Source: Agarophyton chilense
Lineage: Eukaryota > Rhodophyta > Florideophyceae > Gracilariales > Gracilariaceae
DNA: 64,000 bases
Reading direction: 5' to 3'
Assembly (NCBI GenBank): GCA_030374765.1
Contig: JARGXX010000080.1
Span: 1,116,001-1,180,000 of the forward strand
Part shown: positions 19,647 through 48,828 of the stretch, in pieces
Layout of the letters: each line of letters begins with the position of its first letter
How positions within the stretch are numbered: position 1 is the first letter of the stretch
Notes under the pieces: generated by a model
Told to the model about the DNA's origin: nothing
Database searches by the model: none
Seen by the model: only the letters and a program-made list of their open reading frames with translations
Position numbers and translations under genes: made by a program

Positions 19647-19649
19647 CTA

Positions 19650-28424: not shown

Positions 28425-28664
28425 TTACCCGACTTGGGCACGATCCAGATTTGGAGGCAAGGTTACCCGAGCGCGTCGGTGGTAGGATAAAACCTTAGAC
28501 CTCGGAAGGTGCTCAATGGGTTCCACTGTATCCTCATCAGGCGAGAATCCGTACCATCGGACTTGGTAGCGAACTTCTCCCTCGGGGGTGTAGATGTGAC
28601 GCACGATGCGATCGATAACGAATTCCTGCGCGTACACTTTTCCCTGTTCGGGCTTCTCTTCCAT
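28425..28664 (-). CDS. chromodomain protein, family A copy 1
   Basis: A 79-residue frame from the ATG at 28664. Residues ~12-60 form a chromodomain: FVIDRIVRHIY, then a Tyr-rich strand 'VRYQVRWYGF', then 'EPIEHLP', with the aromatic residues of a methyl-lysine cage. In chromoviruses this domain is normally fused to the integrase C-terminus and tethers integration to heterochromatin. Here stops separate it from pol, so it would need its own translation or splicing. It is nearly identical to the copy 2 version. Confidence 0.75.
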   Translation of the reverse strand: MEEKPEQGKVYAQEFVIDRIVRHIYTPEGEVRYQVRWYGFSPDEDTVEPIEHLPRSKVLSYHRRARVTLPPNLDRAQVG

Positions 28665-28924
28665 CTTGGAACGCTCTAGTTCCCTTGAGGGTGTCAACGT
28701 AGAGTTTAGACACACCCCGGTGGGTTCTTTTCCGTGTTGCGAGCAGGTCTCAGCACTTCGTCCAAACGGCGCCGAGTGGCCTGTGGGCTACGTTATAACT
28801 TCCGTCTACGGAGTCAAAGCGGCCCAGTTTTGGTTTCTTCTTAAAGCTGAGATCTTCCCGATAATAACGGTGTTCTTAGATTCCGTGACGGTTGAGAAAC
28901 CGCGACGCGGTAGCGTCTCCAATC

Positions 28925-30346
28925 TCAGGGGGGTAAGACTTCAACGTCAACCCGAGCTACGGGGACGAAGGTTGCTCCCGTGAAACGCGCCGTGCGACGG
29001 AGGCGGTTGGCGCGACGGTTGCTCGTCAGAGCCTTTTGATTGGCTCGGTGCCATTCGACGTGTGCCACACAAATGCGCGGGCGCGCGGTGTGGGGCGACC
29101 GTTCCTTATGCGGGAAAATCTGCATATGCGGATGTGAGGTGGCGCTTTCGACACGCGCTAGCACTCTCCTGAGCTGTCCCCGACGGGTCTCACTCATTTC
29201 TTTCCCATTCCTGAGGGTTCCAGTGTCTCCATAGGAGTTTTTATTCCCATTCCATAACGGAGAGCCAAATTTGGTCAACCTCGTCGTCGAGATCTTCCCC
29301 GTGCGGGTCCGCTGACACAGCTCGTTCCCGAGAAAGCGGGGTTTGAGTGTGCGACACCTCAGTGTCTCGTCCGCGGCGGCGGGTGATCGTCGGCTCTGTA
29401 GGCGTTCCGGGTGCGGAAGTATAACGGGGCGGGTGTTCGAATCTCCGCCTGACGGGTTAACGTCCGTTGAATCATCCCCTGTGGAGGGCGTTGGTGCCGA
29501 CACCACTTCCACATTTGGGTTGGGCGCTCGTGTGATGCGGTCCCTGGAGATCCACTCGTGGCGGTTAGCGATATCCAATACCACCGTGTCCGGGTCTACA
29601 GAAACCACACGATAGGGTCCGTCCACAATTGGCGAAAGCTTGTGCCTACGTTCCTTTTCACGATTGTAGTATTCCTTTCGAAGGAAGACGAAGTCGTCGG
29701 GCTCCACCTGAGGTAGAGGTTTGCGAACCCGATTGTCAAAGTCCTTCTTGTAGGCGCGTTGAGCTTTGTCCATTGCTTTCCGGGCTATCGGCACCATCTT
29801 CGTAAGCCACTCCTTTCAGGCTTCTCGGTACAATCCCGGTGACGGGTACGTCGACAGCGTCGGTTGAGCCTCGATGGCGACCGGCGGCGGTGTCCTCGAC
29901 AGTACCAGTTCGAATGGGGATAACGATGTAACCCGATGTACCTGGGTGTTATATGCATACGTGATAGCGTCTGTGTACAAGTCCCAATTTTTGGGGTGAT
30001 CCGCAACATACGATCTCAAAGCGTTGAGTATCGTGCGGTTAAACCTCTCCACCTGGCCATTCCCCTGAGGGTGATACGTAGTAACAAATAAATTCCTTAC
30101 ATCAAGGATTCGACATACATCCTGAAAGAACTTTGATGCGAATTGCCCTCCGTTTTCGGATAACAACTGCACCGGTGGTCCATATACGAACACCCAATGG
30201 GTCACGAACGCTTGCACGACGGTAGCGGCGGTGATCCGCTTCAGCGGCACAGTTCTCGTTAGCTTAGAGAATCTGTCAGAAATGACAAGCAGATACCGAT
30301 GACCTCGGGGCGTCCTGATAAACTCCCGTAGGATGTCTATGGCCAC
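28925..30346 (-). pseudogene. integrase core and C-terminus, family A copy 1
   Basis: The core (29816-30346) starts after a nonsense codon at 30350-30352 (Glu in copy 2) and ends at a TGA at 29816-29818 (Trp in copy 2). The next open segment, 28925-29797, carries the C-terminal integrase region. The first catalytic Asp (SDRFSKL) and the Glu (GQVERFN) are present, but the second catalytic Asp is changed to Glu (LLSENGGQF against LLSDNGGQF in copy 2). A 370-bp deletion at the pol tail (between CCGCACCC-AGAACG repeats) shifts the frame, producing a different C-terminus. Inactive as encoded. Confidence 0.85.
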
Positions 30347-30349
30347 GAA

Positions 30350-31351
30350 TTAGAGTGGAGGCCGTGCCGGGAACAGCGTCAACTTCTTAGAGTGCTTCCG
30401 AAGTTTGACGTCATTCTTGGCGCAATTGGCGCAGGCCCGTCTGACGGTGTAACAATCGAATGCCATTGCCGGCCAGTAAAAGTCCCTTCTCAACGTGAGG
30501 TACAGTTTTCTTCCCCTGGGGTGGGCGCCAACCTTCACATAGTGAGTGAGGTGTAATACCCTCTGTTGTAGAGTGTGCGGCACCACTATTCTCGGGCGAG
30601 GTCCAACGGTCCTGATTAGGTAACCCTGATCGTCGTCCTCGAAAGGTAACTGAAATCCTCCGTTGAGGCGAGCCCGAATCCGTGTACAGAATGGGTCGAG
30701 CTGTTGCTCGCGTATCATCTCCTCTGGAGAGATAGGTATAAAAGAGCCGGTCGGCGAATCCAGACTCTCGTTGACGAGTATATCGTCACAAACATCATCC
30801 GTCAGCGGTTGAGCTCCTCCCTCGAGGTCCGATACCATAAAGCATGGGATGTCATCGTCCTCGTAGGGGTCTGTTTCCGCTGTTGTTCCCAAGCGGGATA
30901 GTGCATCAGCCTGAGTGTTCAGCTTCCCTTTCTTATGCAGGATCTCAAAGTCGAATTCCGACAGTCGGAGACGCCAGCGCATAAGGCGGCCCGAGGGTTC
31001 GGAGATCTCCAGGAGCCAACGCAAGCATGCGTGGTCCGTATAGACTTTGAAACGAGTACCCATCAGATAGGGGCGAAGTGTAGCTAAGGCCCACACAACG
31101 GCTAAACATTGTTTCTCGGAGACCGAGTAGTTCCTTTCATGGACATTCAGGGAACGTGACCAGTACCCAATAGGGTGACGTTCACCATCCTCAGAGGATT
31201 GGAACAGTGCACACCCTACCTGGTTTGCACTAGCATCGGTGTCCACTTCGTAAGGGAGCCCAGGATTGGGTAGAGCCAAGATTGGCGGTGATGTTACGGC
31301 ATTCACCAGTGCCGTGAAGGCAGACGCTTCCGCGTCGCCAAAAGGTTCCAG
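30350..31351 (-). pseudogene. RNase H and integrase zinc domain, family A copy 1
   Basis: An open frame directly downstream of a TAA (31352-31354) shared with copy 2. The RNase H acidic residues are visible (VDTDAS, SEKQCLAV, VYTDH, NTQADALS), followed by the HHCC integrase N-terminal domain (H-Y-V-K-V-G-A-H ... CANCAKN). It ends at a private TAA replacing a Glu codon. Catalytically plausible residues, but no longer part of a continuous polyprotein. Confidence 0.85.
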
Positions 31352-33403
31352 TTAAACTGGTTGTCCCTTCGTCATGAGCCTGTTGAGGGAGGTGGCAATA
31401 TCCGCAAAGTTCGGGACGAATCGGCGATACACGTTACACAGACCTAAGAAGGATCGCAACTCCGTTTGAGTTTTCGGGTGTTTTGCTTCCTTCAAGGATT
31501 TCACTCGTACTTCATCGATTGAAAGCTGTCCGGGACGGATGATATGACCCAGATACTTAACCGAATCGGTGAAAAACTCGCACTTCTTGAGTTTCAAAGT
31601 GATTTCCGCGTCACGGAGTATCTTCATTACGTCCCTGACGTGTTCGAGGTGGTCATCCAGGTTGTTGGAGAAGACAATAATGTCGTCTAAATACACTAGA
31701 CACGTCCTCCACTTGAAGGGAGCCAACAGAATGTCTATCGCCCGTTGAAACGTTGCGGGGGCATTTGTCAACCCAAAAGGCATCCTCCGGAATCGGAAAA
31801 GTCCTTGATGACACACGAAAGCCGTTTTGTCTCGATCTTCCTCCCTAATAGGGACTTGCCAGTAGCCCGAATTGGCGTCGAGGGTAGAGAAAACAGTAGC
31901 GCTCCCAAGGGAGTCAATGTGTTCGTCCATCCGAGGGATCGGGTACACATCCTTAATGGTTACCTCGTTCAGGCGTCTGTAATCGATGCAGAAACGCCAC
32001 GATCCATCCGGTTTCGAAACTAACACCACTGGTGAGGCCCAAGCTGACTGGGCAGGTTCAATTACGCCCGCTTTAAGCATCTTCTCCACCTGAGATTTCT
32101 CCTCTTCCCGAGCTTTCGGTCCGTCCCTGTAAGGGTGTTGGGCAATAGGCCGAGTGTTCGGTAACAAGTCGATGCGGTGTTCTGTAATCCCAATAGTTCC
32201 AAGGGAACCATCCCACATGGGGGTAAATTCACGAAGCATGTGCCTCAGCTTCTCCCGATGAGATGCGGGTACATGGTCGAGATCCCATTTCTCCAATTCC
32301 TGAACAGGATCCGTCTGGTCTGCTCCTGTGATAGGGGCCGTAACCTTCTGCGGTTTAAAGTGTTCAGCGTGTGGAGCTGCAGTGGTATTCTCACTGTCTT
32401 CCGCGATTTCGGCAGTGTCCTCCCCCTCCTTAGGGTCCGCCACACCAAGGACCTCTGTGATAGAGATCTTTGTAGGTACGACCGCATACGGGTATGGAAG
32501 AACAGAACCCAGGATCTGGTGTTTGACCAAATGCTGCGTTGTCTTTCCAAGGTTGGCTACCAAAACCTTGAAAGGTTTATCCGGTTCCACGGAGACAACC
32601 CCATTCGCAAGGGCGAGTTGACGCCACGTATACAGAGACGGGTTCGGTTGTACCACATGCACACCAATTTGCTTGTTAACAACTGTGACCCAAACCTGGG
32701 TTTCTGGCGGGATAGCCACTGACTTCGCAACCTTTACCCGTGTAGACACCGGGTCCTTCTTCACAGATTCCTGCGCGACAGGGAGAGGAACGCGTGTTTG
32801 CGCTGCTCCCTGTAAGGGTTTACGAACGATTGGGATCGTAGACCCGTCTTCGAGTTTCACAGTTCTACTCCGAGGACGGATGGCTTCCACGAAGCGGTCG
32901 CAAAAGTCACAACCCAGTATGACTGGTGCTGCAAGTGACTTGCATAAAATAAACTCCAGTTGGACGAGATAGGAGCCTAACCTCACCATGAGGGAAATTG
33001 TACCCAGTGTCCGTAGCGGGTTGTTGTTCGCATCGGCAATACCCAAACGTGGACCGGTACGAACTTGGACCCGGAGCAGCGGGGGTAACAATTCCACATG
33101 AATTAAGTTAGGAGCGGCTCCTGTATCCAGGACAGATATTTGACGAACCTTAAACTGGTTGGACAGGCCGAAGTCGGCGAATACTTTATAATTCCGCTTG
33201 GCCATTACCATAACTCGATCCGGAATACGGAGATTACGGGACCGTATCCACGGGCGACGGAGGACACTAAAGTATCCCGAGTTAACGTCGGTGTCAGCCG
33301 TTCTCCTTGAAAGGATAGTCACAGCTGGGGAGCGAAGCTGGAGCGCCTCGGGCGTCTTCAACTCCGGCTTAGAAGACGCCCCTCCCGCAGGGGAGACTCC
33401 CAA
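31352..33403 (-). CDS. protease-reverse transcriptase, family A copy 1
   Basis: A 683-codon open frame. The aspartic protease active site DTGA lies near residue 93, with the flap-side ILGCDFCDRF downstream. The reverse transcriptase has MPFGLTNAPATFQ and the catalytic VYLDDIIVFS box near residue 570, then the thumb and LRSFLGLCNVYRRF connection. It is entered from gag in the -1 frame: the upstream gag frame ends with AAAAAC-TAA at 33406-33414 (see the frameshift site). No Met start; a polyprotein segment. It ends at a TAA shared with copy 2 and absent from family B. Confidence 0.9.
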   Translation of the reverse strand: MGVSPAGGASSKPELKTPEALQLRSPAVTILSRRTADTDVNSGYFSVLRRPWIRSRNLRIPDRVMVMAKRNYKVFADFGLSNQFKVRQISVLDTGAAPNLIHVELLPPLLRVQVRTGPRLGIADANNNPLRTLGTISLMVRLGSYLVQLEFILCKSLAAPVILGCDFCDRFVEAIRPRSRTVKLEDGSTIPIVRKPLQGAAQTRVPLPVAQESVKKDPVSTRVKVAKSVAIPPETQVWVTVVNKQIGVHVVQPNPSLYTWRQLALANGVVSVEPDKPFKVLVANLGKTTQHLVKHQILGSVLPYPYAVVPTKISITEVLGVADPKEGEDTAEIAEDSENTTAAPHAEHFKPQKVTAPITGADQTDPVQELEKWDLDHVPASHREKLRHMLREFTPMWDGSLGTIGITEHRIDLLPNTRPIAQHPYRDGPKAREEEKSQVEKMLKAGVIEPAQSAWASPVVLVSKPDGSWRFCIDYRRLNEVTIKDVYPIPRMDEHIDSLGSATVFSTLDANSGYWQVPIREEDRDKTAFVCHQGLFRFRRMPFGLTNAPATFQRAIDILLAPFKWRTCLVYLDDIIVFSNNLDDHLEHVRDVMKILRDAEITLKLKKCEFFTDSVKYLGHIIRPGQLSIDEVRVKSLKEAKHPKTQTELRSFLGLCNVYRRFVPNFADIATSLNRLMTKGQPV

Positions 33404-33405
33404 GT

Positions 33406-33987
33406 TTAGTTTTTCGAAGCGGACCCCACCGAATTCGGTGCAGCTGCAGCGAAGGGGACCGGTTGTTCCCCGTTCGCGGGTACAAGTTCTGTATCCCTGT
33501 CAGCAAGGTGAGCTCGGAGTATCCTTTGTTCCTCATAGGACCTACTCGGGACTCGAGCTTTCTCCTCAGGGGTCAGAGCCTCGTACTGAGCGATAATTCG
33601 TGAGCCCTCCCGCAGGGGAAATGTGCAGTCTGGTGCTTTGTGACCACGGAGGTAACACAAATAGAAAATCAGCTCTGCCGGGTTCGGTTGTGGACGTGAA
33701 TCCACGCGACGTGGTGCTGTATCCCTCCATCCGGGGCGAGAGAACCGAGCAGCGGTATTCGCAAAAGGTAGCGATGCGGCTGGCACCCTCCGTCCTTGGG
33801 TATAGAGCGCAGGGTCTTCATCCGTAGTCGGAGCGGATGTCGACGGCAACTCAGATGTACCCATAGATTCGGGGTTACTTCCCATGAAGTGAATGTTATC
33901 ATTGACCCCCACAGAGGCAGGGCCTCCTGCGAGTGACAAAGACGAGTTACCTCCATCGGCGAGGAGTGCACGTGTCGGCCGACTGTT
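33406..33987 (-). CDS. nucleocapsid part of gag, family A copy 1
   Basis: In frame with the capsid part but separated from it by a TGA at 33988-33990 that copy 2 shares. It contains a CCHC zinc knuckle, CYLCYLRGHKAPDC (C-x2-C-x4-H-x4-C), which binds the genomic RNA during packaging. It ends ...SASKN followed by TAA, immediately after the AAAAAC slip sequence. Unlike copy 2, this copy has no frameshift after the knuckle. Confidence 0.85.
   Translation of the reverse strand, partial: NSRPTRALLADGGNSSLSLAGGPASVGVNDNIHFMGSNPESMGTSELPSTSAPTTDEDPALYTQGRRVPAASLPFANTAARFSRPGWRDTAPRRVDSRPQPNPAELIFYLCYLRGHKAPDCTFPLREGSRIIAQYEALTPEEKARVPSRSYEEQRILRAHLADRDTELVPANGEQPVPFAAAAPNSVGSASKN
33409..33414 (-). 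promoter_or_regulatory. candidate -1 frameshift site, gag/pol (copy 1)
   Basis: AAA AAC directly before the gag TAA; a -1 slip leads straight into the protease-RT frame. The hairpin-forming sequence downstream (GGGCGTCTTC ... GAAGACGCCC) is conserved with copy 2. Confidence 0.5.
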
Positions 33988-33990
33988 TCA

Positions 33991-35316
33991 GTTCTGCCGG
34001 GCACGGAGAGTATCCCCCTCAGCCTGGGCGTACTGAACCAGTTCCAAGTAGGTCAGCTTGCGCTTCTCTTCCCGATGTCGGGAAACCAATGCCCTTATCG
34101 AGGGGTCCAAACCATCCACAAACATGGTGCATCTCTCTTAGACGGGGAATACATTCCCGCATCGGTGAAACGCTTTATTCAAGCGAGTTGAATACACCGT
34201 TTCGGTTTCCATCGGCTTCTGCCGCGTATCCCTTAATGCGAGGATTGCTTCCTGAATCGCATTTCCAGTAGCGTATGACCTCAAGAGGTACTGCACCGCT
34301 TCGGGCCAGCACGTGACTCCCCCTTCCGAGGCTCGGGATGATCCACGGACGGAGTTGAACTGGTCTTCAGCCATCCCCTTTAAGAAATAGGGTAATGCAA
34401 GATACGCTTGCGCTTCACTCATACCGAGGATGTCAGCCTCCTGGACGAACCTCGCAAGGAAATCGAGCACCAGAATTGGGTCTGTTCCTGTGAACTCCCT
34501 CTTCTGTAGGGTGATGCTCAGCCTTTTGATGTAGTCCTTGACCTTACCCGTTCCGCGGGATGTTCGATCTCCCGAAGGGTTATCCAACCGGTAATAGCGG
34601 TACGATAGCAGCTTCCGATAGAGAGGATTCGTCGGCTTCAGCTCCCTTAATCCAAGGTGTTTCCTACCCTTCTTCCGGGTACGGATTGCCCCTTGAGAGG
34701 TGTAAGTAGCCTTCGACCGAGTCGCCCGGGATGACCGGCGTCCATCTTCACTATCCGAAGATTCGGAGGACGAACTCGATGACGAGCGATTGGGATCGGA
34801 ATCCGATAAATCCTCTTGGAGGTGAACCCTCTTCTTGGACTTGCGGCGGTCCCGTTTAGCGGAGCGGTGTTCTTCGTCTTCCGAAACGTCGGGTTTATCC
34901 TTCGAGGCTTCTGTGTCTCCGTCCATACGGATAATGGCCTCGAGGGTGTCCAGCCGAGCTCGGAAGCGTTCCGCTTGCACGCGGTGTTCCTCCACCTTGC
35001 GGCGGAGGGTAGTAACCTCCTGAAGGAGCTCGACGTGAGCCGCGTTGGCGATATCGATTCGAGTCTCCAGGCGCTGTAATTCAGGGTCGGCCCGACTTCG
35101 GGGTGCTGCTGAGGGGGTCTCCACCACTGGAGCTGGGCCCACAGCCACGACCTCTCGAGGACCTGAAACCACTGAGGGTGCTCTCCGAGTGTCCGGATCG
35201 ATACCGGAATCGTTCCGATCTTCGGGAATTGAGCTCCTCGACCTAGGCGGGGCCGGGGGCACTGAATTCGCTTGACCGTTCGATCCAGTCCTGGAACCAC
35301 GGGTAGGCGGCGACAT
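33991..35316 (-). pseudogene. gag capsid part, family A copy 1 (deleted, nonsense)
   Basis: ATG at 35316 (MSPPTRGSRTG). It has a Ser/Pro/Arg-rich N-terminal region, a coiled-coil-like segment, an acidic/Ser-rich linker and a capsid-like C-terminal half (VQYLLRSYATGNAIQEAILAL). Compared with copy 2 it lacks 40 residues of the coiled coil: a 120-bp in-frame loss between two GTGGAGGA repeats. It has a private TAA at 34138-34140 in place of a Tyr codon. Gag normally builds the cytoplasmic virus-like particle. Confidence 0.85.
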
Positions 35317-35520
35317 GCTGCAGACACGACACCGACGATTCGGGGTAACGATGAAATTCCATCACGAGATTCCCGGAGACCGGATGACGTAACACAAAAC
35401 AAAAATAAAAACCAATTCCACCCTTTCCAAAGAGGACCACTACAACAAATCTTCACGACGGTGCTTCCTCTTCCAAGAGATATTCCAACACGCGGATGAC
35501 CAACCCAAAAGTTCGAGAAC

Positions 35521-35541
35521 GGATTCTAAGTCGGGAGACCA
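35521..35541 (-). other. primer binding site, family A copy 1
   Basis: Two bases after the 5' LTR end the minus strand reads TGGTCTCCCGACTTAGAA. The initial TGG pairs with the CCA tail of a tRNA as usual for an LTR element. I cannot assign the tRNA; it does not fit initiator Met or the tRNA-Ser in this window. Confidence 0.6.
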
Positions 35542-35543
35542 CT

Positions 35544-36466
35544 TGTGGAGCAAAACCCGGCGACGGGAAGTGCTCTCAAGGTGTTCGAAGCCTTGCTCCC
35601 TGGGGGAGGCAGACTCAGAGACAGAGCCCTCCGTTCCACCCGTAGTGTGGGGTGTAACTCCCACGGAGGATTCCGGCAGTACCGACGGAGGTGAGGGGTA
35701 GAAACCGTTGGGTCGGGAATGGGTCTGGGGATCCCAAAGAATAGGGGAAAATCCGGCGAAGAGGAAAAACGGGGCGAGGGTCGGGCACTAACAGGCACCG
35801 GACCCGAGAACCAAAAAAGGGGCGAAACAACAAAAGAAACCCAGTACAGGGGCGAAAACCTGTCCTCGAAAGGAAACACAAAAAGCACGCAACAAGTAAG
35901 CAGAACCCCCACGGGGTATCGTGCACGCAGGTCGTCTGAGCGGTCCCAAGGGGGTGGTTGCACGGAACCCAAACGTCGGCACTCTCCAAGTGGAGTCGTG
36001 TCCATACGCAGGCGTTGCTAACCAGAGCCCGTTCCGGGTTGTAAGGCCGAAACGATGGCGACGAAGAACCTCTAAAGGTATCGAAGACCAACCTTCGTTC
36101 CCATTTACTCTGAGCTTCGGACTGTCAGTTCTCGTCTCCCTAAGTAGGGCCCACTAACTAAACTCTACTAATTACAGTAGTGCACACCTGCTCAGGGCCA
36201 TACACGTGGAGATCCCACTGTCAGGGCCCAAAAGTCCAACGTTCTAACAAATATCCGAAAATCGGTGCCAAAGATAAGCCACGTGTATCACGGGGCCAAT
36301 CCAACCATGGGCCATCCGAATCTTCCCTTCATAGGCGAACTCTAACCAGAAAACAGTGCCACCTCAGCACACCTTAGAGGGGATCATAGTCATAACCCTC
36401 GGAGGGTTCAACCCTCATTCTATGAGTTGCATCTTCAAGTATCCCCTGACTGGGCGTTGCTCTACA
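35544..36466 (-). repeat. family A copy 1, 5' LTR
   Basis: TGTAGAGCAACG at 36466 to CTCCACA at 35544 on minus, 923 bp. It differs from its partner by few substitutions and a small indel, so insertion was recent. Long open frames cross it but lack ATG. Confidence 0.93.
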
Positions 36467-36858: not shown

Positions 36859-37771
36859 GGTAGAGCAACGCCCAGTCAGGGGATACTTGAAGATGCAACT
36901 CATAGAATGAGGACTGAACCCTCCGAGGGTTATGATTATGATCCCCTCTAAGGTGTGCTGAGGTGGCACTGTTTTCTGGTTATATTTTGCCTATAAGGGA
37001 AGATTCGGATGGCCCATGGTTGGATTGGCTCCGTGATACACGTGGCTTAATTTTGGCACCGAATTTCGGATATTTGTTAGAACGTTGGATTTTTGGGCCC
37101 TGGCAGTGGGATCTCCACGTGTATGGCCCTGAGCAGGTGTGCACTACTGTAGAGTTTAGTTAGTGGGCCCTACTTAGGGAGGCGAGATCTGACAGTCCGA
37201 GCTCAGAGTAAATGACAACCAAGGTTGGTCTTCGATACCTTTAGAGGTTCTTCGTCGCCATCGTTTCGGCCTTACAACCCGGAACGGGCTCTGGTTAGCA
37301 ACGCCTGCGTAGGGACACGACTCCACTTGGAGAGTGCCCACGTTTGGGTTCCGTGCAACCACCCCCTTGGGACCGCTCAGACGACCTGCGTGCACGATAC
37401 CCCGTGGGGGTTCTGCTTACTTGTTGCGTGCTTTTTGTGTTTCCTTTCGAGGACAGGTTTTCGCCCCTGTGTTGGGTTTCTTTTGTTGTTTCGCCCCTTT
37501 TCTGGTTCTCGGGTCCGGTGCCTGTTAGTGCCCGACCCTCGCCCCGTTTTTCCTCTTCGCCGGATTTTCCCCCATTCTTTGGGATACCCATACCCATTCC
37601 CGATCCACGGTTTCTACCCCTCACCTCTGTCCGTACTGCCAGAATCCCCCGTGGGAGTTACACCCCACACTACGGGTGGAACGGAGGGCTCTGTCTCTGA
37701 GACTGCCTCCCCCAGGGAGCAAGGCTTCGAACACCTTGAGAGCACTTCCAGTCGCCGGGTTTCGCTCCACA
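36859..37771 (+). repeat. family A copy 2, 5' LTR
   Basis: Nearly identical to 47732-48644. The first base is G instead of T compared with the 3' LTR. It contains a TATA-like CTATAAGGG near 36990 and the palindrome AACCCTCCGAGGGTT near its start. It ends CTCCACA, then AG, then the primer site. Confidence 0.92.
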
Positions 37772-37773
37772 AG

Positions 37774-37998: not shown

Positions 37999-39444
37999 AT
38001 GACGCCCCCTACCCGTGGTTCCAGGACTGGATCGAACCGTCAAGCGGATTCAGTGCCCCCGGCCCTGCCTAGGTCGAGGAGCTCAATTCCCGAAGATCGG
38101 AACGATTCCGGTATCGATTCGGACACTCGGAGAGCACCCTCAGTGGTTTCAGATCCTCGAGAGGTCGTGGCTGTGGGCCCAGATCCAGTGGTGGAGACCC
38201 CCTCAGCAGCACCCCGAAGTCGGGCCGACCCTGAATTACAGCGCCTGGAGACTCGAATTGATATCGCCAACGCGGCTCATATCGAGCTCCTTCAGGAAGT
38301 TACTACCCTCCGCCTCAGAGTGGAGGACGCCCAGGTGCGGGGAGTCGCCGATGACCTTCGTACCCTGAGGAGGGATGTGAACTCCCTTTTGGAAAGCTTT
38401 GGTACCCCTGGGGTCTTTATCCAGGAGTACCGGAGCCTCGTGGAGGAACACCACGTGCAAGCGGAACGCTTTCGAGCTCGACTGGACACCCTCAAGGCCA
38501 TTATCCGTATGGACGGAGACGCGGAAGCCTCGAAGGATAAACCCGACGTTTCGGAAGACGAAGAACACCGCTCCGCTAAACGGGACCGCCGCAAGTCAAA
38601 GAAGAGCCTTCACCTCCAAGAGGATTTATCGGATTCCGATCCCAATCGCTCGTCATCGAGTTCGTCCTCCGAATCTTCAGATAGTGAAGATGGACGCCGG
38701 TCATCCCGGGCGACTCGGTCGAAGGCTACTTACACCTCTCAAGGGGCAATCCGTACCCGGAAGAAGGGTAGGAAACACCTTGGATTAAGGGAGCTGAAGC
38801 CGACGAATCCTCTCTATCGGAAGCTGCTATCGTACCGCTATTACCGGTTGGATAACCCTTCGGGAGATCGAACATCCCGCGGAACGGGTAAGGTCAAGGA
38901 CTACATCAAAAGGCTGAGCATCACCCTACAGAAGAGGGAGTTCACAGGAACAGACCCAATTCTGGTGCTCGATTTCCTTTCGAGGTTTGTCCAGGAGGCT
39001 GACATCCTCGGTATGAGTGAAGCGCAAGCGTATCTTGCATTACCCTATTTCTTAAAGGGCATGGCTGAAGACCAGTTCAACTCCGTCCGTGGGTCATCCT
39101 GAGCCTTGGAAGGGGGAGTCACGTGCTGGCCCGAAGCGGTGCAGTACCTCTTGAGGTCATACGCTACTGGAAATGCGATTCAGGAAGCAATCCTTGCATT
39201 AAGAGATACGCGGCAGAAGCCGATGGAAACCGAAACGGTGTATTCAACTCGCTTGAATAAAGCGTTTCACCGATGCGGGAATGTATTCCCCGCCTACGAG
39301 AGATGCACCATGTTTGTGGATGGTTTGGACCCCTCGATAAGGGCATTGGTTTCCCGACATCGGGAAGAGAAGCGCAAGCTGACCTACTTGGAACTGGTTC
39401 AGTACGCCCAGGCTGAGGGGGATACTCTCCGTGCCCGGCAGAAC
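37999..39444 (+). pseudogene. gag capsid part, family A copy 2
   Basis: ATG at 37999 (MTPPTRGSRTG). Residues ~60-170 are Arg/Glu-rich and coiled-coil-like, including the 40 residues lost from copy 1. A Ser-rich acidic linker follows (SSSSSSESSDSEDGRRSS), then the capsid-like half. A private TGA at 39103-39105 replaces an Arg CGA codon of copy 1 (a C-to-T change). The frame then continues to ...LRARQN and a TGA at 39445-39447 shared with copy 1. Gag forms the particle in which reverse transcription occurs. Confidence 0.88.
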
Positions 39445-40028: not shown

Positions 40029-40084
40029 ACTTGGGAGTCTCCCCTGCGGGAGGGGCGTCTTCTAAGCCGGAGTTGAAGACGCCC
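40020..40084 (+). promoter_or_regulatory. candidate -1 ribosomal frameshift signal, gag/pol (copy 2)
   Basis: AAA AAC (40020-40025) is followed directly by the gag TAA. One step back, the frame reads CTA AAC TTG and enters the protease-RT ORF. Seven bases after the slip sequence lies GGGAGTCTCCCC...GGGAG (40033-40052). A perfect 10-bp stem, GGGCGTCTTC/GAAGACGCCC (40053-40062 with 40075-40084), follows. AAAAAC slip sites followed by structure drive -1 frameshifting in several retroelements. The base before AAA is G, so the heptamer is not canonical. Confidence 0.5.
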
Positions 40085-42082
40085 GAGGCGCTCCAGCTTC
40101 GCTCCCCAGCTGTGACTATCCTTTCAAGGAGAACGGCTGACACCGACGTTAACTCGGGATACTTTAGTGTCCTCCGTCGCCCGTGGATACGGTCCCGTAA
40201 TCTCCGTATTCCGGATCGAGTTATGGTAATGGCCAAGCGGAATTATAAAGTATTCGCCGACTTCGGCCTGTCCAACCAGTTTATGGTTCGTCAAATATCT
40301 GTCCTGGATACAGGAGCCGCTCCTAACTTAATTCATGTGGAATTGTTACCCCCGCTGCTCCGGGTCCAAGTTCGTACCGGTCCACGTTTGGATATCGCCG
40401 ATGCGAACAACAACCCGCTACGGACACTGGGTACAATTTCCCTCATGGTGAGGTTAGGCTCCTATCTCGTCCAACTGGAGTTTATTGTATGCAAGTCACT
40501 TGCAGCACCAGTCATACTGGGTTGTGACTTTTGCGACCGCTTCGTGGAAGCCATCCGTCCTCGGAGTAGAACTGTGAAACTCGAAGACGGGTCTACGATC
40601 CCAATCGTTCGTAAACCCTTACAGGGAGCAGCGCGAACACGCGTTCCTCTCCCTGTCGCGCAGGAATCTGTGAAGAAGGACCCGGTGTCTACACGGGTAA
40701 AGGTTGCGAAGTCAGTGGCTATCCCGCCAGAAACCCAGGTTTGGGTCACAGTTGTTACCAAGCAAATTGGTGTGCATGTGGTACAACCGAACCCGTCTCT
40801 GTATACGCGGCGTCAACTAGCCCTTGCGAATGGGGTTGTCTCCGTGGAACCGGATAAACCTTTCAAGGTTTTGGTAGCCAACCTTGGAAAGACAACGCAG
40901 CATTTGGTCAAACACCAGATCCTGGGTTCTGTTCTTCCATACCCGTATGCGGTCGTACCTAAAAAGATCTCTATCGCAGAGGTCCTTGTTGTGGCGGACC
41001 GTAAGGAGGGGGAGGACACTGCCGAAATCGCGGAAGACGGTGAGCATACGACTGCAGCTCCACACGCTGAACACTTTAAACCTCAGGAGGTCACGGCCCC
41101 TATCACAGGAGCAGACCAGACGGATCCTGTTCAGGAATTGGAAAAATGGGATCTCAACCATGTACCCGCATCTCATCGGGAGAAGCTGAGGCACATGCTT
41201 CGTGAATTTACCCCCATGTGGGATGGTTCCCTTGAAACTATTGCGATTACAGAACACCGCATCGACTTGTTACCGAGCACTCAACCTATTGCCCAACACC
41301 CTTACAGGGCTGGACCGAAAGCTCGGGAAGAGGAGAAATCTCAGGTGGAGAAGATGCTTAAAGCGGGCGTAATTGAACCTGCCCAGTCGGCTTGGGCCTC
41401 ACCAGTGGTGTTAGTTCCGAAACCGGATGGATCGTGGCGTTTCTGCATCGATTACAGACGCCTGAACGAGGTAACCATTAAGGATGTGTACCCGATCCCT
41501 CGGATGGACGAATACATCGACTCCCTTGGGAGCGCTACTGTTTTCTCTACCCTTGACGCCAATTCGGGCTACTGGCAAGTCCCTATTAGGGAGGAAGATC
41601 GAGACAAAACGGCTTTCGTGTGTCATCAAGGACTTTTCCGATTCCGGAGGATGCCTTTTGGGTTGACAAATGCCCCCGCAACGTTTCAACGGGCGATAGA
41701 CATTCTGTTGGCTCCCTTCAAGTGGAGGACGTGTCTAGTGTATTTAGACGACATTATTTTCTTCTCCAACAACCTGGATGACCACCTCGAACACGTCAGG
41801 GACGTAATGAAGATACTCCGTGACGCGGGAATCACCTTGAAACTCAAGAAGTGCGAGTTTTTCACCGATTCGGTTAAGTATCTGGGTCATATCATCCGTC
41901 CCGGACAGCTTTCAATCGATGAAGTACGAGTGAAATCCTTGAAGGAAGCAAAACACCCGAAAACTCAAACGGAGTTGCGATCCTTTTTAGGTCTGTGTAA
42001 CGTGTATCGCCGATTCGTCCCGAACTTTGCGGATATTGCCACCCCCCTCAACAGGCTCCTGACGAAGGGACAACCACTTTAA
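40031..42082 (+). CDS. protease-reverse transcriptase, family A copy 2
   Basis: A 683-codon open frame, -1 relative to the end of gag. DTGA protease active site at residues 93-96, and ILGCDFCDRF downstream. The reverse transcriptase runs from about residue 390, with IDYRRLNEVTIKD, STLDANSGYWQVPI, MPFGLTNAPATFQ and the catalytic YLDD at 571-574. The connection LRSFLGLCNVYRRFVPNFADI is Ty3-like. It makes the cDNA copy of the element inside the particle. No Met start, so it is part of a polyprotein. It ends at TAA 42080-42082, which copy 1 shares but family B replaces with Lys. Confidence 0.93.
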   Translation: MGVSPAGGASSKPELKTPEALQLRSPAVTILSRRTADTDVNSGYFSVLRRPWIRSRNLRIPDRVMVMAKRNYKVFADFGLSNQFMVRQISVLDTGAAPNLIHVELLPPLLRVQVRTGPRLDIADANNNPLRTLGTISLMVRLGSYLVQLEFIVCKSLAAPVILGCDFCDRFVEAIRPRSRTVKLEDGSTIPIVRKPLQGAARTRVPLPVAQESVKKDPVSTRVKVAKSVAIPPETQVWVTVVTKQIGVHVVQPNPSLYTRRQLALANGVVSVEPDKPFKVLVANLGKTTQHLVKHQILGSVLPYPYAVVPKKISIAEVLVVADRKEGEDTAEIAEDGEHTTAAPHAEHFKPQEVTAPITGADQTDPVQELEKWDLNHVPASHREKLRHMLREFTPMWDGSLETIAITEHRIDLLPSTQPIAQHPYRAGPKAREEEKSQVEKMLKAGVIEPAQSAWASPVVLVPKPDGSWRFCIDYRRLNEVTIKDVYPIPRMDEYIDSLGSATVFSTLDANSGYWQVPIREEDRDKTAFVCHQGLFRFRRMPFGLTNAPATFQRAIDILLAPFKWRTCLVYLDDIIFFSNNLDDHLEHVRDVMKILRDAGITLKLKKCEFFTDSVKYLGHIIRPGQLSIDEVRVKSLKEAKHPKTQTELRSFLGLCNVYRRFVPNFADIATPLNRLLTKGQPL

Positions 42083-44563
42083 CTGGAACCTTTTGGCGAC
42101 GCGGAAGCGTCTGCCTTCACGGCACTGGTGAATGCCGTAACATCACCGCCAATCTTGGCTCTACGCAATCCTGGGCTCCCTTACGAAGTGGACACCGATG
42201 CTAGTGCAAACCAGGTAGGGTGTGCACTGTTCCAATCCTCTAAGGATGGTGAAAGTCACCCTATTGGGTACTGGTCACGTTCCCTGAATGTCCATGAAAG
42301 GAACTACTCGGTCTCCGAGAAACAATGTTTAGCCGTTGTGTGGGCCTTAGCTACACTTCGCCCCTATCTGATGGGTACTCGTTTCAAAGTCTATACGGAC
42401 CACGCATGCTTGCGTTGGCTCCTGGAGATCTCCGAACCCTCGGGCCGCCTTATGCGCTGGCGTCTCCGACTGTCGGAATTCGACTTTGAGATCCTGCATA
42501 AGAAAGGGAAGCTGAACACTCAGGCTGATGCACTATCCCGCTTGGGAACAACAGCGGAAACAGACCCCTACGAGGACGATGACATCCCATGCTTTATGGT
42601 ATCGGACCTCGAGGGAGGAGCTCAACCGCTGACGGATGATGTTTGTGACGATATACTCGTCAACGAGAGTCCGGATTCGCCGACCGGCTCTTTTATACCT
42701 ATCTCTCCAGAGGAGATGATACGCGAGCAACAGCTCGACCCATTCTGTACACGGATTCGGGCTCGCCTCAACGGAGGATTTCAGTTACCTTTCGAGGACG
42801 ACGATCAGGGTTACCTAATCAGGACCGTTGGACCTCGCCTGAGGATAGTGGTGCCGCACACCCTACAACAGAGGGTACTACATCTCACTCACTATGTGAA
42901 GGTTGGCGCCCACCCCGGGGGAAGAAAACTGTACCTCACGTTGAGAAGGGACTTTTACTGGCCGGCAATGGCATTCGATTGTTACGCCGTCAGACGGGCC
43001 TGCGCCAATTGCGCCAAGAATGACGTCAAACTTCGGAAGCACTCTAAGATGTTGACGCTGTTCCCGGCACGGGCTCCACTCGAATTCGTGCCCATAGACA
43101 TCCTAGGGGAGTTTATCAGAACGCCCCGAGGTCATCGGTATCTGCTTGTCATTTCTGACAGATTCTCTAAGCTAACGAGAACTGTGCCGCTGAAGCGGAT
43201 CACCGCCGCTACCGTCGCGCAAGCGTTCGTGACCCATTGGGTGTTCGTATATGGACCGCCGGTGCAGTTGTTATCCGACAACGGAGGGCAATTCGCATCA
43301 AAGCTCTTTCAAGATGTATGTCGAATCCTTGATGTAAGGAATTTATTTGTTACTACGTATCACCCTCAGGGAAATGGCCAGGTGGAGAGGTTTAACCGCA
43401 CGATACTCAACGCTTTGAGATCGTATGTTGCGGATCACCCCAAAAACTGGGACTTGTACACAGACGCTATCACGTATGCATACAACACCCAGGTACATCG
43501 GGTTACATCTTTATCCCCATTCGAACTGGTACTGTCGAGGACACCGCCGCCGGTCGCCATCGAGGCTCAACCGACGCTGTCGACGTACCCGTCACCGGGA
43601 TTGTACCGAGAAGTCTGGAAGGAGTGGCTTACGAAGATGGTGCCGATAGCCCGGAAAGCAATGGACAAAGCTCAACGCGCCTACAAGAAGGACTTTGACA
43701 ATCGGGTTCGCAAACCTCTACCTCAGGTGGAGCCCGACGACTTCGTCTTCCTTCGAAAGGAATACTACAATCGTGAAAAGGAACGTAGGCACAAGCTTTC
43801 GCCAATTGTGGACGGACCCTATCGGGTGGTTTCTGTAGACCCGGACACGGTGGTATTGGATATTGCTAACCGCCACGAACGGATCTCCAGGGACCGCATC
43901 ACACGAGCGCCCAACCCAAATGTGGAAGTGGTGTCGGCACCAACGCCCTCCACAGGGGATGATTCAACGGAAGTTAACCCGTCAGGCGGAGATTCGAACA
44001 CCCGCCCCGTTATACTTCCGCACCCAGAACGTGGTTTAACCGACCTACCGGAAACTTCGGATACTCCCGAACCTGGGCCCGCTCCCTCAAGGGCCCAGCC
44101 AACGAACTCTTACAGAGTTACTACCCCACCGGAGGTAATCAAGCCTCCTGGCTCTCCGCTTAAGGAGGGGGAGGATGACTTAGTTCCTTCGCAGGACGAT
44201 GTTTCGGCGTCAGCCAGTCGCCCTAACAGGGAATCTAGTTCTCCCAGTGAGACGGCGAGCCCGACCGAGCCGGCGACAGAGAAGTCACAACCCCAGCGTA
44301 TGGGTAGCGACATCACCGCCGACCCAGCCGAGCACGACGTCAGAAAAGATGACGAAAACCCGCCTAGGGAGAGTCGTGTGGAGAACTCCGCACCCGGAAC
44401 GCCTACAGAGCCGACGATCACCCGCCGCCGCGGAAGAGACTCTGAGGTGTCGCACACTCAAACCCCGCTTTCTCGGGAACGAGTTGTGTCAGAGGACCCG
44501 CACGGGGAAGATCTCGACGACGAGGTTGACCAAATTTGGCTCTCCGTTATGGAATGGGAATAA
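42083..44563 (+). CDS. RNase H-integrase, family A copy 2
   Basis: Same frame as the RT, resuming after the TAA and open for 826 codons. RNase H acidic residues: VDTDAS, SEKQCLAV, VYTDH and NTQADALS. Integrase: HHCC zinc domain (H-Y-V-K-V-G-A-H ... CANCAKN); core with Asp in SDRFSKL, Asp in LLSDNGGQF and Glu in GQVERFN, all three catalytic residues intact; then a C-terminal GPY/F-type block (DGPYRVVSVDPDTVVLDI). A long Pro/Ser/Glu-rich tail of about 180 residues follows and ends SVMEWE. Integrase inserts the cDNA into the host genome. Apart from the preceding TAA, this is an intact pol end. Confidence 0.92.
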   Translation: MEPFGDAEASAFTALVNAVTSPPILALRNPGLPYEVDTDASANQVGCALFQSSKDGESHPIGYWSRSLNVHERNYSVSEKQCLAVVWALATLRPYLMGTRFKVYTDHACLRWLLEISEPSGRLMRWRLRLSEFDFEILHKKGKLNTQADALSRLGTTAETDPYEDDDIPCFMVSDLEGGAQPLTDDVCDDILVNESPDSPTGSFIPISPEEMIREQQLDPFCTRIRARLNGGFQLPFEDDDQGYLIRTVGPRLRIVVPHTLQQRVLHLTHYVKVGAHPGGRKLYLTLRRDFYWPAMAFDCYAVRRACANCAKNDVKLRKHSKMLTLFPARAPLEFVPIDILGEFIRTPRGHRYLLVISDRFSKLTRTVPLKRITAATVAQAFVTHWVFVYGPPVQLLSDNGGQFASKLFQDVCRILDVRNLFVTTYHPQGNGQVERFNRTILNALRSYVADHPKNWDLYTDAITYAYNTQVHRVTSLSPFELVLSRTPPPVAIEAQPTLSTYPSPGLYREVWKEWLTKMVPIARKAMDKAQRAYKKDFDNRVRKPLPQVEPDDFVFLRKEYYNREKERRHKLSPIVDGPYRVVSVDPDTVVLDIANRHERISRDRITRAPNPNVEVVSAPTPSTGDDSTEVNPSGGDSNTRPVILPHPERGLTDLPETSDTPEPGPAPSRAQPTNSYRVTTPPEVIKPPGSPLKEGEDDLVPSQDDVSASASRPNRESSSPSETASPTEPATEKSQPQRMGSDITADPAEHDVRKDDENPPRESRVENSAPGTPTEPTITRRRGRDSEVSHTQTPLSRERVVSEDPHGEDLDDEVDQIWLSVMEWE

Positions 44564-44827: not shown

Positions 44828-45163
44828 CCGTCGCACGGCGCGTTGCACAAGAGCAACCTTCGTCCCCGTAGCTCGGGTTGACGTTGAAGTCTTACCCCCC
44901 TGAGATTGGAGACGCTACCGCGTCGCGGTTTCTCAACCGTCACGGAATCTAAGAACACCGTTATTATCGGGAAGATCTCAGCTTTAAGAAAAAACCAAAA
45001 CTGGGCCGCTTTGACTCCGTAGACGGAAGTTATAACGTAGCCCACAGGCCACTCGGCGCCGTTTGGACGAAGTGCTGAGACCTGCTCGCAACACGGAAAA
45101 GAACCCACCGGGGTGTGTCTAAACTCTACGTTGACACCCTCAAGGGAACTAGAGCGTTCCAAG

Positions 45164-45403
45164 ATGGAAGAGAAGCCCGAACAGGGAAAAGTGTACCCGC
45201 AGGAATTCGTTATCGATCGCATCGTGCGTCACATCTACACCCCCGAGGGAGAAGTTCGCTACCAAGTCCGATGGTACGGATTCTCGCCTGATGAGGATAC
45301 AGTGGAACCCATTGAGCACCTTCCGAGGTCTAAGGTTTTATCCTATCACCGACGCGCTCGGGTAACCTTGCCTCCAAATCTGGATCGTGCCCAAGTCGGG
45401 TAA
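45164..45403 (+). CDS. chromodomain protein, family A copy 2
   Basis: 79 residues from the ATG at 45164, 600 bp after the pol stop. Chromodomain residues ~12-60: FVIDRIVRHIY, VRYQVRWYGF and EPIEHLP, then a basic tail (YHRRARVTLP). In other chromoviruses it is fused to integrase; here stops in every frame intervene, so it is either a separate product or joined by splicing. The same arrangement is found in copy 1, and the domain is recognisable in family B. Confidence 0.78.
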   Translation: MEEKPEQGKVYPQEFVIDRIVRHIYTPEGEVRYQVRWYGFSPDEDTVEPIEHLPRSKVLSYHRRARVTLPPNLDRAQVG

Positions 45404-45793
45404 GCCACCACGGGAACTGGTTTGGATGCGACCTCGAAGTGAGGAAGATGTTAGACCTCTGAAGAGGAATTGAGGAGAGTATCCCGAAGAACACGTATTG
45501 AGAGGGAATGTTTACTGGCCCTCGGCCTAGCGCCGTTAACCGGGGAACACAGCACCGGTTATCGGGACAGTTTATGATGAAAAAAGGAAAAGAAGACTCA
45601 CGAAGTGGAGAAGAAGATGAAGAAAAAGATTGGACCCTAGGAAGGGCAGAAGATGAAGAAGATCCTAAGCAGGAATGAAGAAGATGAAGTAGAAGTTATG
45701 ATCCTAGGAAGGAAGAAGAAAAGAAGTTATGCAAATATCTGAAGTTTACTATTGTCGCCAAGCTATGGACTCTACAATTGCCCGAAGGCAGAA
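45404..45793. other. GA-rich tract between convergent chromodomain and antisense genes
   Basis: About 45570-45740 is GAAGAA-rich, with repeated (A/T)CCTAGGAAGG units. It separates two convergently oriented frames and is conserved in copy 1, so it may hold poly(A)/termination signals for either strand. No coding frame. Confidence 0.6.
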
Positions 45794-47650
45794 CTACGGA
45801 AAGCCCGAGGAGGGACCCGCCCCACCGTTGGGATTCTGACCCTGATGGTACGCCGAGGCGAAAGCCAACATCTGGCTCACATCCGTCATACCCGGGGGAA
45901 TCGGAATGCCTGCGTTCACGAGGCCTTGTCGCACACTATCCCCTTGCGAAGTGGCAACCGGCGCCTGCGCAAGGGTGTTCACACCCCACCCGGGGGGAGC
46001 AGATGGACCGCCACCGGATGCATTCGCCGCCGCAGGTGAGGTCGTTCCCACTGGTTGGAAGGGTGCAGATGGCTCCACAGGGAGTACTCCACTAGGAGCT
46101 GGCACTTCGTTATCCAACGCTGGATCGTCCAGGTCTACTGGAGGCTCGTACTCGTAATCGTCGGTATAAATGAACCCCGTCGGGTGTCCCACCGGCATCG
46201 GTCGAGGCGAGTCAATCAGCGCCCGTGCTTGCGCCGCGCTGATGCGAACCCCTTCGAAGGGATTGTAATAGACCTAGTTACCGGAGCCCGGATCGTACCG
46301 GCCAGGAGACTTGTCTCGCGCGGATCCTTCCCCTGCGGGCTGATTTGCCACTGGAACTCGATCCCATTGGGTGTTGTCGATCACGTCCAAGATTGGATAC
46401 AGGTACTGCACGTTGCTGGCCGAACCCAACGCTGGGACAAGGTCGATCTGACGCATGATGGTCCGTAGCATCGGAGGAATATACCAGATACGGAAATGGT
46501 CATGAGCATCCCAGAGGAGGTGCGCCGCTACGCGGGCTGCCCACTCGGCTGCAACGAGGGCCCAGTATCCCGAGTTCGGGTCGTGCATCAAACGAGACCC
46601 GATATAGTAGATACATGGGGGCAGTTCAGCAAAGCACCCTCGGGGGACCTCGATCTTACTCCACCAAGCTGGAAGGGGCACGAATCGCCCAACCTTCGCC
46701 GTGTTACGGATACGCTCCAGTTCCACGTGAGGATACGGGACAAGGAACCCGAAACGGGAGCGCGAGCGGCGCTCGAAGCGCACGCGTCGATCGAACCCAT
46801 ATTGGGTAAACTGCCGCTGAAGGTACCTGAATTCAGCCCGAAGGATGGGACGACTCCATTGGAGCATATCTTCTCGGAGAGGAAAACCCGGTCCGCGGAA
46901 CTCGGCTTCGGGAAAGGCTGCAAAGTTATCCCCGTAGGAGACCTCACCGTACGTGCGGTAATAGGCGACGTCGAACCCGTACTCCGGGGGAACCAGATGG
47001 TCAAAGCGTGACCTCTCCAATCGCTGGTAGGCCAGAGCCGCCATCGCTGCGCGCGCCTTGTCCAGGGACTCACCGCGACTGCGGTATAGATACTGAGGCT
47101 CTATGGCTACCCGCGCCCTCCAATCGGGAGAACGTACAACCTCAACAGGTAGGCCACCCGGCAATAAGCCGTCCTCCACGTAGGAGTCGATGAGCTCATC
47201 GTCGCGAACCGCTGTCGGATGGAACCACGGAGCGCGGGAATATATCACCGGATCGGTAAGGGGACTCCACCTTCGAAAGGATTCGTTTGAGATCCAACCT
47301 CTGGAGTTTGCTACCAAGGGCATCGCATGAGCGGAGTTCCACGCCACCGCGGTGATGTCCAAATCCTTTTGAGGATGTCGGTTGACCGCCGAGGCGGAAG
47401 GTTCGGTACCTGACGGAGCCGCATCCAAACCGGAGAAATATCCACCCTGCTGGGGAGCTTCGTTGTCCGCCGGCGCGGAGGCCGATGGCCCCGAGAGTGG
47501 GTTGATGACGTATGGGTTCATTCCCTTGAGAGGGCTAGTCGAAACCGCTGTTGCGAGAAGGTGCTTATCGCCGAAAGTCGGAGGAGTAGAAGAAAGTTGT
47601 ACCGATGTGCCGGTTTTGTGGCGATCCTCAGAAGTGGTGAAGGACCCCAT
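45794..47650 (-). CDS. antisense ORF (aORF) of the family A retrotransposon
   Basis: Encoded opposite to gag-pol, starting with the ATG at 47650 (MGSFTTSEDRH), 82 bp inside the 3' LTR, and reading 618 codons to 45794 with one interruption, an amber TAG at 46274-46276. The protein has a variable Ser/Pro/Gly-rich first third and a conserved middle (about residues 150-410) rich in Arg and aromatic residues (RGES, FDHLVPPEYG, YRTYGE, CIYYIGSRL, AAHLLW). A Pro/Gly/Ala-rich tail follows. The middle aligns colinearly to the antisense relic in family B. No catalytic motif, signal peptide or membrane segment was recognised. Antisense genes near the 3' LTR are known in some plant Ty3/gypsy elements, but I see no basis to assign the same function. 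Copy 1 has lost it by deletion. Confidence 0.72.
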
Positions 47651-47717: not shown

Positions 47718-47731
47718 TAAGGAGGGGGAGA
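47718..47731 (+). other. polypurine tract, family A copy 2
   Basis: AAGGAGGGGGAGA directly before the 3' LTR start TGTAGAGC; primes plus-strand DNA synthesis. Same sequence in copy 1. Confidence 0.85.
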
Positions 47732-48644
47732 TGTAGAGCAACGCCCAGTCAGGGGATACTTGAAGATGCAACTCATAGAATGAGGACTGAACCCTCCGAG
47801 GGTTATGATTATGGTCCCCTCTAAGGTGTGCTGAGGTGGCACTGTTTTCTGGTTATATTTTGCCTATAAGGGAAAATTCGGATGGCCCATGGTTGGATTG
47901 GCCCCGTGATACACGTGGCTTAATTTTGGCACCGAATTTCGGATATTTGTTAGAACGTTGGATTTTTGGGCCCTGGCAGTGGGATCTCCACGTGTATGGC
48001 CCTGAGCAGGTGTGCACTACTGTAGAGTTTAGTTAGTGGGCCCTACTTAGGGAGGCGAGATCTGACAGTCCGAGCTCAGAGTAAATGACAACCAAGGTTG
48101 GTCTTCGATACCTTTAGAGGTTCTTCGTCGCCATCGTTTCGGCCTTACAACCCGGAACGGGCTCTGGTTAGCAACGCCTGCGTAGGGACACGACTCCACT
48201 TGGAGAGTGCCCGCGTTTGGGTTCCGTGCAACCACCCCCTTGGGACCGCTCAGACGACCTGCGTGCACGATACCCCGTGGGGGTTCTGCTTACTTGTTGC
48301 GTGCTTTTTGTGTTTCCTTTCGAGGACAGGTTTTCGCCCCTGTATTGGGTTTCTTTTGTTGTTTCGCCCCTTTTCTGGTTCTCGGGTCCGGTGCCTGTTA
48401 GTGCCCGACCCTCGCCCCGTTTTTCCTCTTCGCCGGATTTTCCCCCATTCTTTGGGATACCCATACCCATTCCCGATCCACGGTTTCTACCCCTCACCTC
48501 CGTCGGTACTGCCGGAATCCCCCGTGGAAGTTACACCCCACACTACGGGTGGAACGGAGGGCTCTGTCTCTGAGTCTGCCTCCCCCAGGGAGCAAGGCTT
48601 CGAACACCTTGAGAGCACTTCCCGTCGCCGGGTTTTGCTCCACA
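47732..48644 (+). repeat. family A copy 2, 3' LTR
   Basis: 913 bp, TGTAGAGCAACG to CTCCACA. Very similar to 36859-37771. The sequence right of 48644 returns to the Tc1 transposon. Confidence 0.93.
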
Positions 48645-48828
48645 AAATTAACAAAATCAGTGTGAAAAAATTTTCAAGAAAAAATAATGTTTCGAAAACA
48701 TAACCTTTATTGCATCCTTTTGATTCTGACGCGAGTTCAGTAGTTTATTTTTGCTCTTTTAGCCTGTATAACACTTATACAACGCTTTGGCATTGATTCT
48801 ATAAAAGGATTGTAAGAATTACAGTCAA

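Follow-up and report, generated by a model that had tools for sequence, protein, structure and literature searches.

Antisense accessory genes have been known in the LTR elements of flowering plants and of HTLV-type retroviruses. Open reading frames (ORFs) lying antisense between pol and the 3' LTR, with a TRP28 domain in their product, are a hallmark of the Retand-type elements, a non-chromovirus lineage of flowering plants in which most families carry such an ORF and in which the function of TRP28 is not known, according to the sections of the report available to us (PMC11963269). The same sections mention nuclear localisation of the antisense protein of Grande, and they count HBZ of HTLV-1 and APH-2 of HTLV-2 among the antisense genes of LTR elements, with a nuclear regulatory product (PMC11963269). 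Family-specific additional ORFs, the extra ORF3s, have also been described for LTR elements of bdelloid rotifers and resemble the present case in that respect, the accessible part of that report making no mention of their orientation (PMC5408684). A search of open-licence papers by their titles and the beginnings of their abstracts brought up none that describes an antisense gene for the elements of red algae, which is a weak sign of absence from the literature.

The DNA studied here (the window) is the whole stretch of 64,000 nucleotides of the Agarophyton chilense genome, which holds two Ty3/gypsy copies of one family (A), in opposite orientation, and one older element (family B). The first-pass annotation had placed a long frame, antisense to gag-pol, in the interval from the chromodomain ORF to the 3' LTR of the long family A copy, and this arrangement was confirmed. 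The features of the window are as follows.

14395..25230, minus strand (pol): old family B element, with LTRs at 14395-15117 and 24506-25230 that are 70% identical
15604..16753, plus strand: decayed antisense ORF of family B (tblastn E 6.8e-29)
26853..36466, minus strand: short family A element, most of the antisense ORF missing (1,682-bp deletion relative to the long copy)
27856..28020, plus strand: remnant of the antisense ORF in the short A copy, its last 55 codons (87% identity)
36860..37772, plus strand: 5' LTR of the long family A element, 98.7% identical to its 3' LTR
37999..39102, plus strand: gag-like sense ORF of 367 codons, named from its place; other families have matches at the same place
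40031..42082, plus strand: pol part 1, reverse transcriptase (PF00078, E 3.7e-40)
42128..44563, plus strand: pol part 2, RNase H and integrase (PF17917, E 6.4e-35; PF17921, E 2.7e-11; PF00665, E 4.6e-10)
45113..45403, plus strand: chromodomain ORF, the last sense gene (PF00385, E 1.7e-8)
45404..45793, no strand: gap separating the two convergent reading frames, from reading the sequence
45794..47650, minus strand: antisense ORF, with its ATG at 47650 and a TAG at 46274-46276, open in other copies
47719..47731, plus strand: polypurine tract between the antisense ATG and the LTR, recognised by eye
47732..48645, plus strand: 3' LTR of the long family A element, from LTR comparison, where most of the antisense promoter would lie

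The domains of the long A copy follow one another in the chromovirus order (PF00078, PF17917, PF17921, PF00665 and PF00385), split over several ORFs, and by this order of reverse transcriptase (RT), RNase H, integrase and chromodomain the element classifies as a chromodomain Ty3/gypsy element. The gag-like ORF gave no match in a Pfam search. The gap between the convergent frames is purine-rich on the sense strand at about 45575-45725, and an Rfam search of 44900-48700 returned no match. The long A copy also has a pair of direct repeats, each of 50 bp (96% match), at 44728-44828, after the integrase and before the chromodomain. The minus-strand placement of the family B pol is based on one 164-nt match (41417-41580 to 20829-20666).

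Like the ORFs of Retand, Grande and RIRE2, the red algal ORF is antisense to gag-pol and lies between pol and the 3' LTR; however, the red algal elements carry a chromodomain and their hosts are red algae, whereas Retand appears in the available sections as a non-chromovirus lineage of flowering plants (PMC11963269). The proteins differ as well, since none of 18 red algal ones (13 + 5) matched TRP28 (PF04195) or any other Pfam family at E up to 1. Of three defining features tested it lacks two (TRP28 and a non-chromovirus lineage); the red algal gene is like the Retand type in arrangement and not a member of it, and the relation to plant antisense ORFs that the first-pass annotation had left open extends, as far as tested, to the arrangement only. 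With HBZ and APH-2 the gene shares its antisense placement in an LTR element, as those genes are presented in the same sections (PMC11963269), but there is no sequence relation in Pfam, in NCBIfam (four proteins, no match) or among PDB sequences, where no relative was found, and the red algal protein has about 600 residues and a transcript that is only predicted. A strongly conserved red algal antisense gene with no detectable relation to the known ones hints at more than one origin of the arrangement, and it offers a natural comparison for what antisense accessory genes do.

The claim of a 618-codon frame holds for the family rather than for the copy in which it was made: in the window the TAG divides the frame into 458 + 159 codons, while a copy on another contig (L002, protein P0001) is open over all 618. 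Family B does have a decayed relative at the same place and in the same orientation, as had been proposed (15604-16753, plus strand; tblastn over the window, E 6.8e-29), recovered as four pieces in more than one frame with 25.5-38.8% identity, and the equal block spacing reported for the two families was found again, at 216 residues versus 215 codons between the two largest pieces.

The genome searched comprised 79.8 Mb in 135 contigs, and the copy counts are lower bounds. For family A, all 90 scored copies (the best 90 of 1801 first-look candidates) matched at 94-100% identity, 52 of them without a stop in the queried 471 residues and 38 with stops. With the family B relic as query, 150/150 scored copies matched, at 43-58% identity apart from the window itself. 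Sorting by eye and by the tree gives three more families among them, B' at about 51-58% identity to the relic and both C and D at about 43-50%. The open piece of the relic, 15604-16014, is itself about 51-58% identical to the B' copies, a group drawn by eye. All 74 scored family C copies matched, some being tandem duplicates, and 48 were stop-free (the stop counts for families A and C were made by hand).

Twenty loci of B', C and D, mostly picked for long frames, were fetched. Measured from the first ATG, the antisense frame had 554-659 codons in 18 of them and was shorter in L038 and L040; an apparent frameshift lies near the C-terminus in L035 and L037, and L011, the relic of the window, gave no open match. 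In one step of the analysis L021-L024 were dropped as duplicates of L012, L014, L016 and L017. A chromodomain was present in 18/20 loci (L036 and L038 gave no match), its best match lying on the strand opposite to the antisense frame in 18/18; L021 and L028 have in addition a weaker match on the strand of the frame itself. Matches to pol fell on the frame's own strand in L036 and L039 and on both strands in L024 and L034, which would reflect insertions nested in or next to these elements. In family C, the strand facing the antisense gene carries an open frame of 411 codons (L029, L031 and L032:1428-2660, minus strand), and one copy each of A, B' and D has at most 256 open codons there.

The frame is almost certainly a real, conserved antisense protein gene. 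That its conservation goes beyond chance, as the first-pass annotation had argued, was borne out in one open copy from each of four families (n=4), where the observed 591-645 codons compare with maxima of 375-563 in 2000 Markov resamples per copy, 0/2000 reaching the observed length; on the antisense strand of the pol region, at most 206 codons in a row are open at five loci. Six core sequences have no stop in the antisense frame and 1-21 stops in each of the five other frames. Between families, the JC-corrected dN/dS was 0.24-0.26 for pairs drawn from B', C and D and 0.33-0.44 for pairs that include A (pol, 0.14-0.24), a purifying selection similar in order to that on pol. In these comparisons pS was 0.62-0.69, dS was near saturation and codon position 3 varied most, and the between-family result does not depend on how copies were selected. 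An alignment of 13 sequences has 87 invariant columns, and a wider set of 11, partial proteins among them, has 30.

Within families, dN/dS in the antisense frame was only moderately below 1 (A 0.55, B' 0.78, C 0.60, D 0.65), values biased low because copies of the frame were picked by query similarity or openness, which was not so for pol. When the same copies were compared (five of B', five of C, three of D), the antisense frame gave 0.65, 0.56 and 0.71, against 0.71, 0.86 and 0.86 for pol part 1 and 0.77, 0.69 and 0.78 for pol part 2; the one pair available for family A pol gave 0.73 and 0.52, the latter not above the 0.55 of the frame. The pol comparison covered 13/20 loci and that family A pair, seven loci being omitted as nested, interrupted or RT-less. 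At two-state codons, the ratio of non-silent to silent changes (N:S) was below expectation in each of the four families (p 0.006, 0.04, 0.0002 and 0.0002; pooled 5e-9), these p values being somewhat too small because the counts exclude stop variants (4, 3, 0 and 4 in A, B', C and D) and codons that show three or more states or multiple changes (21, 56, 16 and 102), whereas changes creating a stop enter the expected fraction as non-silent. Variants common to at least two copies numbered 51 N : 42 S, for an expectation of about 2.5 : 1 (p 0.0005, subject to the same caveat), and in B' alone the shared variants (19 N : 8 S) had no silent excess, as expected without selection. Within-family dN/dS alone would not have settled which strand is coding: a frame of the sense strand (rc1), whose wobble positions coincide with those of the antisense frame, gave 0.51-0.75. 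With 12-21 stops in every one of six core sequences, rc1 does not code, and its low dN/dS echoes that of the antisense frame. The two outcomes that the first-pass annotation had named as contradicting a conserved antisense gene were a dN/dS near 1 and the lack of an open frame in other members, and neither appeared: the ratio is 0.24-0.44 between and 0.55-0.78 within families, and besides the 618 codons of family A, 18/20 loci of B', C and D have frames of 554-659 codons.

Protein searches scored about 8,000 candidates sharing most words, and the homolog counts are lower bounds. Single-sequence and full-length profile searches found at least one homolog, and a profile of the core alone found at least 10 at E up to 1, all with E < 1e-50. 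Five of ten have a named host, in every case a red alga. They include protein BWQ96_03215 of Gracilariopsis chorda (P0003; 617 aa, 58% identity in the core) and four fragments labelled Agarophyton chilense (P0007-P0010), one of which, P0008, shares 99% identity with a copy found here, and these matches point to a host in the Gracilariaceae, A. chilense or a very close relative; P0002 (48% identity), P0004, P0005, P0006 and P0011 are ENA or lgn proteins. An antisense place in an LTR element is assumed for the foreign homologs. A pattern-based search of IMG/VR and of prokaryote genome contigs found no homolog. In a tree that left out P0011, as partial, and the four fragments, P0003 and P0004 grouped with family C (100/100) and P0002 with family A (100/99), while P0006 formed a long outlying branch of unsure placement. 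Because P0003 and P0004 join family C, the C-type gene would predate the split of Gracilariopsis and Agarophyton, unless it moved between hosts.

The antisense protein consists of a variable, mostly basic N-terminus, a conserved core, some 325 residues long, with much Arg, many aromatic residues and almost no Lys, and an acidic tail, the end of which is a short, partly conserved stretch. Families B', C and D and the protein P0003 have an N-terminus of pI 10.6-12.0, whereas family A has one of 4.8 and P0002 one of 6.2; the pI of the tail is 4.1-4.4 in nine of the ten proteins having one and 5.8 in P0002. AlphaFold models had a mean pLDDT of 38 and 35 and were not used. K/(K+R) is 0.02-0.13 in 11/11 antisense proteins versus 0.28-0.43 in 14 sense ORFs, a set made up of three from the window element and the longest one from each of 11 loci. 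The core has 0-4 Lys in 11/11 proteins (three cores being partial) and at most one in six, and P0003 has a single lysine in 617 residues, so that by Lys counts, rather than by a formal desert score, the protein is lysine-desert-like, with long conserved Lys-free stretches. Pooled over four families, lysine makes up 0.61% of the antisense protein versus 4.43% of pol, the 19 other residues being within 0.49-1.85 fold. The bias seems to act on the amino acid rather than on the bases, since AAG is scarce (3.6 vs 28.4 codons per 1000, frame vs pol) while GAG (36 vs 27) and AAC (27 vs 20) are unreduced; AGA (4.0 vs 6.2) and AGG (5.3 vs 10.6) are mildly reduced. Base usage by codon position predicts 1.85% Lys for the frame and 2.9% for pol, and base composition therefore accounts for only part of the scarcity, given the 0.61% seen (P ~1e-7).

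The antisense gene converges on the chromodomain ORF. Its ATG and the 3' LTR are separated by 81 bp in family A and by 47 bp in family C (L031), a space that holds the polypurine tract; at such distances, most of any antisense promoter would be the LTR itself read in antisense. Genes of the HBZ type have a 3' position and an antisense promoter in the 3' LTR. Given the short distances here, the mRNA of the red algal gene may come, once the element has integrated, from transcription that its 3' LTR starts in antisense, and the product would act in trans, as an accessory or regulatory protein and no part of the replication enzymes, with host silencing or the export, packaging or stability of the element's RNA as candidate tasks. 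Its lack of Lys would block ubiquitylation and degradation, or permit work beside the host ubiquitin machinery. An accessory protein is the best reading because the product is strongly conserved, not recognisably gag-like and not part of pol, and its expression from the 3' LTR is rather probable. For the explanation as a whole, that is, a chromodomain Ty3/gypsy lineage of gracilariacean red algae with an antisense gene, an mRNA made from the 3' LTR and a trans-acting accessory product, we estimate a probability of about 0.6.

Derivatives of these elements bear on the action in trans. In a family C derivative (L028, L031), about 3.5 kb of pol is represented by 0.93 kb of diverged or unrelated sequence (L031:4587-5516) in which Pfam finds no RT or integrase match. 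The derivative retains gag-like sequence, a chromodomain (E 3e-4, which falls short of the Pfam cut-off) and the antisense frame, and the type is apparently a non-autonomous subfamily of family C. The 0.93-kb segment has at least 34 near full-length copies (among 40 scored), nine of which adjoin antisense frames among the 74 best family C matches, six of these nine stop-free (matched by hand), so that at least six copies keep the gene without a stop. A target duplication of 5 bp (GTTCC) flanks the short A element of the window. This gene-less element recurs at another locus, C92:2385370, with different flanks, so the antisense gene is not strictly needed in cis. Retention of the gene by a variant without recognisable RT and integrase and the spread of a gene-less A element fit a useful trans-acting helper that relatives can supply. 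The product is most likely a trans-acting accessory protein. The near absence of Lys and the retention of the gene where RT and integrase are not recognisable are testable clues to its function, not met for the plant cases in the accessible sections of that report (PMC11963269), and the nearly Lys-free composition is the best lead to a biochemical role.

Narrower roles are less certain. That the protein regulates by binding nucleic acid, or exports RNA, in the manner of Rev/Rex or HBZ, with the Arg/aromatic core and the mostly basic N-terminus binding the RNA of the element or the DNA of its LTR, is a doubtful possibility: the eight proteins with a complete core have 38-43 Arg plus Lys in about 325 residues, but the same cores carry 32-41 acidic residues, the high N-terminal pI of B', C, D and P0003 gives way to acidic values in family A and P0002, and, although the plant TRP28 domain is predicted to bind DNA in the sections at hand (PMC11963269), Pfam finds no nucleic-acid-binding domain in the 18 proteins. 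The accessory reading also has a sharper form, in which a Lys-poor protein would bind, redirect or escape the ubiquitin-proteasome or silencing machinery of the host, its lysines purged because any would be ubiquitylated. Lysine deserts are frequent among ubiquitin-system proteins, according to the part of the source available (PMC10169902), which agrees with the low Lys of 11/11 proteins and with a bias that looks amino-acid-level; yet the 18 proteins lack any ubiquitin-related Pfam domain, the use of Arg for Lys has other causes too, such as RNA binding, the base usage of the frame already predicts less Lys than that of pol, and AGA and AGG are also somewhat reduced, all of which makes this form unlikely. 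Quite unlikely is its fullest version, a dedicated, Lys-purged accessory protein of red algal chromoviruses that works against host defence (ubiquitin-proteasome or silencing), whether as its antagonist or by hijacking it, is so useful that an RT- and integrase-less parasite still keeps it alongside gag and chromodomain, and was invented independently of the antisense genes of plant Retand elements and retroviruses.

Other readings depart from a regulatory role. A gag-related, capsid-like helper in structure or packaging would agree with the variant that keeps gag-like sequence, chromodomain and antisense gene without RT and integrase, but a profile comparison with gag-like ORFs of the same lineage gave a probability of 0.1% (from few sequences, Neff ~2), and the reading is improbable. 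In retroviruses env lies between pol and the 3' LTR, so an extra ORF there recalls an envelope-like protein, placed in antisense; the orientation itself speaks against this, no signal peptide was seen by eye, and the maximum 19-residue hydropathy stays below 1.6, the threshold for a membrane segment over that length, in 9/11 proteins (L022 and L033 have 1.70 and 1.74), which leaves it extremely unlikely. That base composition merely keeps open a passenger frame without function might be thought from the stop in the window copy, the loss of the frame in the short A copy and the stops in 38/90 family A copies, but it has next to no probability when none of 2000 resamples is as long in four copies, between-family dN/dS is well below 1, 87 columns are invariant among 13 sequences and homologs occur in other sequence sets; homologs, between-family dN/dS and tree together refute it in effect.

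Two minor observations concern the surroundings of the elements. Just outside element B, the window has a strong GC skew (0.28, 0.41) over about 4 kb (10001-14000), in which a tandem repeat search found none. Elsewhere in the genome, three family C copies (C68:3138181, 3147378 and 3156575; L029) follow one another head to tail, 9,197 bp apart and with equal scores, an arrangement that resembles a tandem array in which the repeats of a single element have LTRs in common, and the copies at C77:295889 and 305138 have a similar look.
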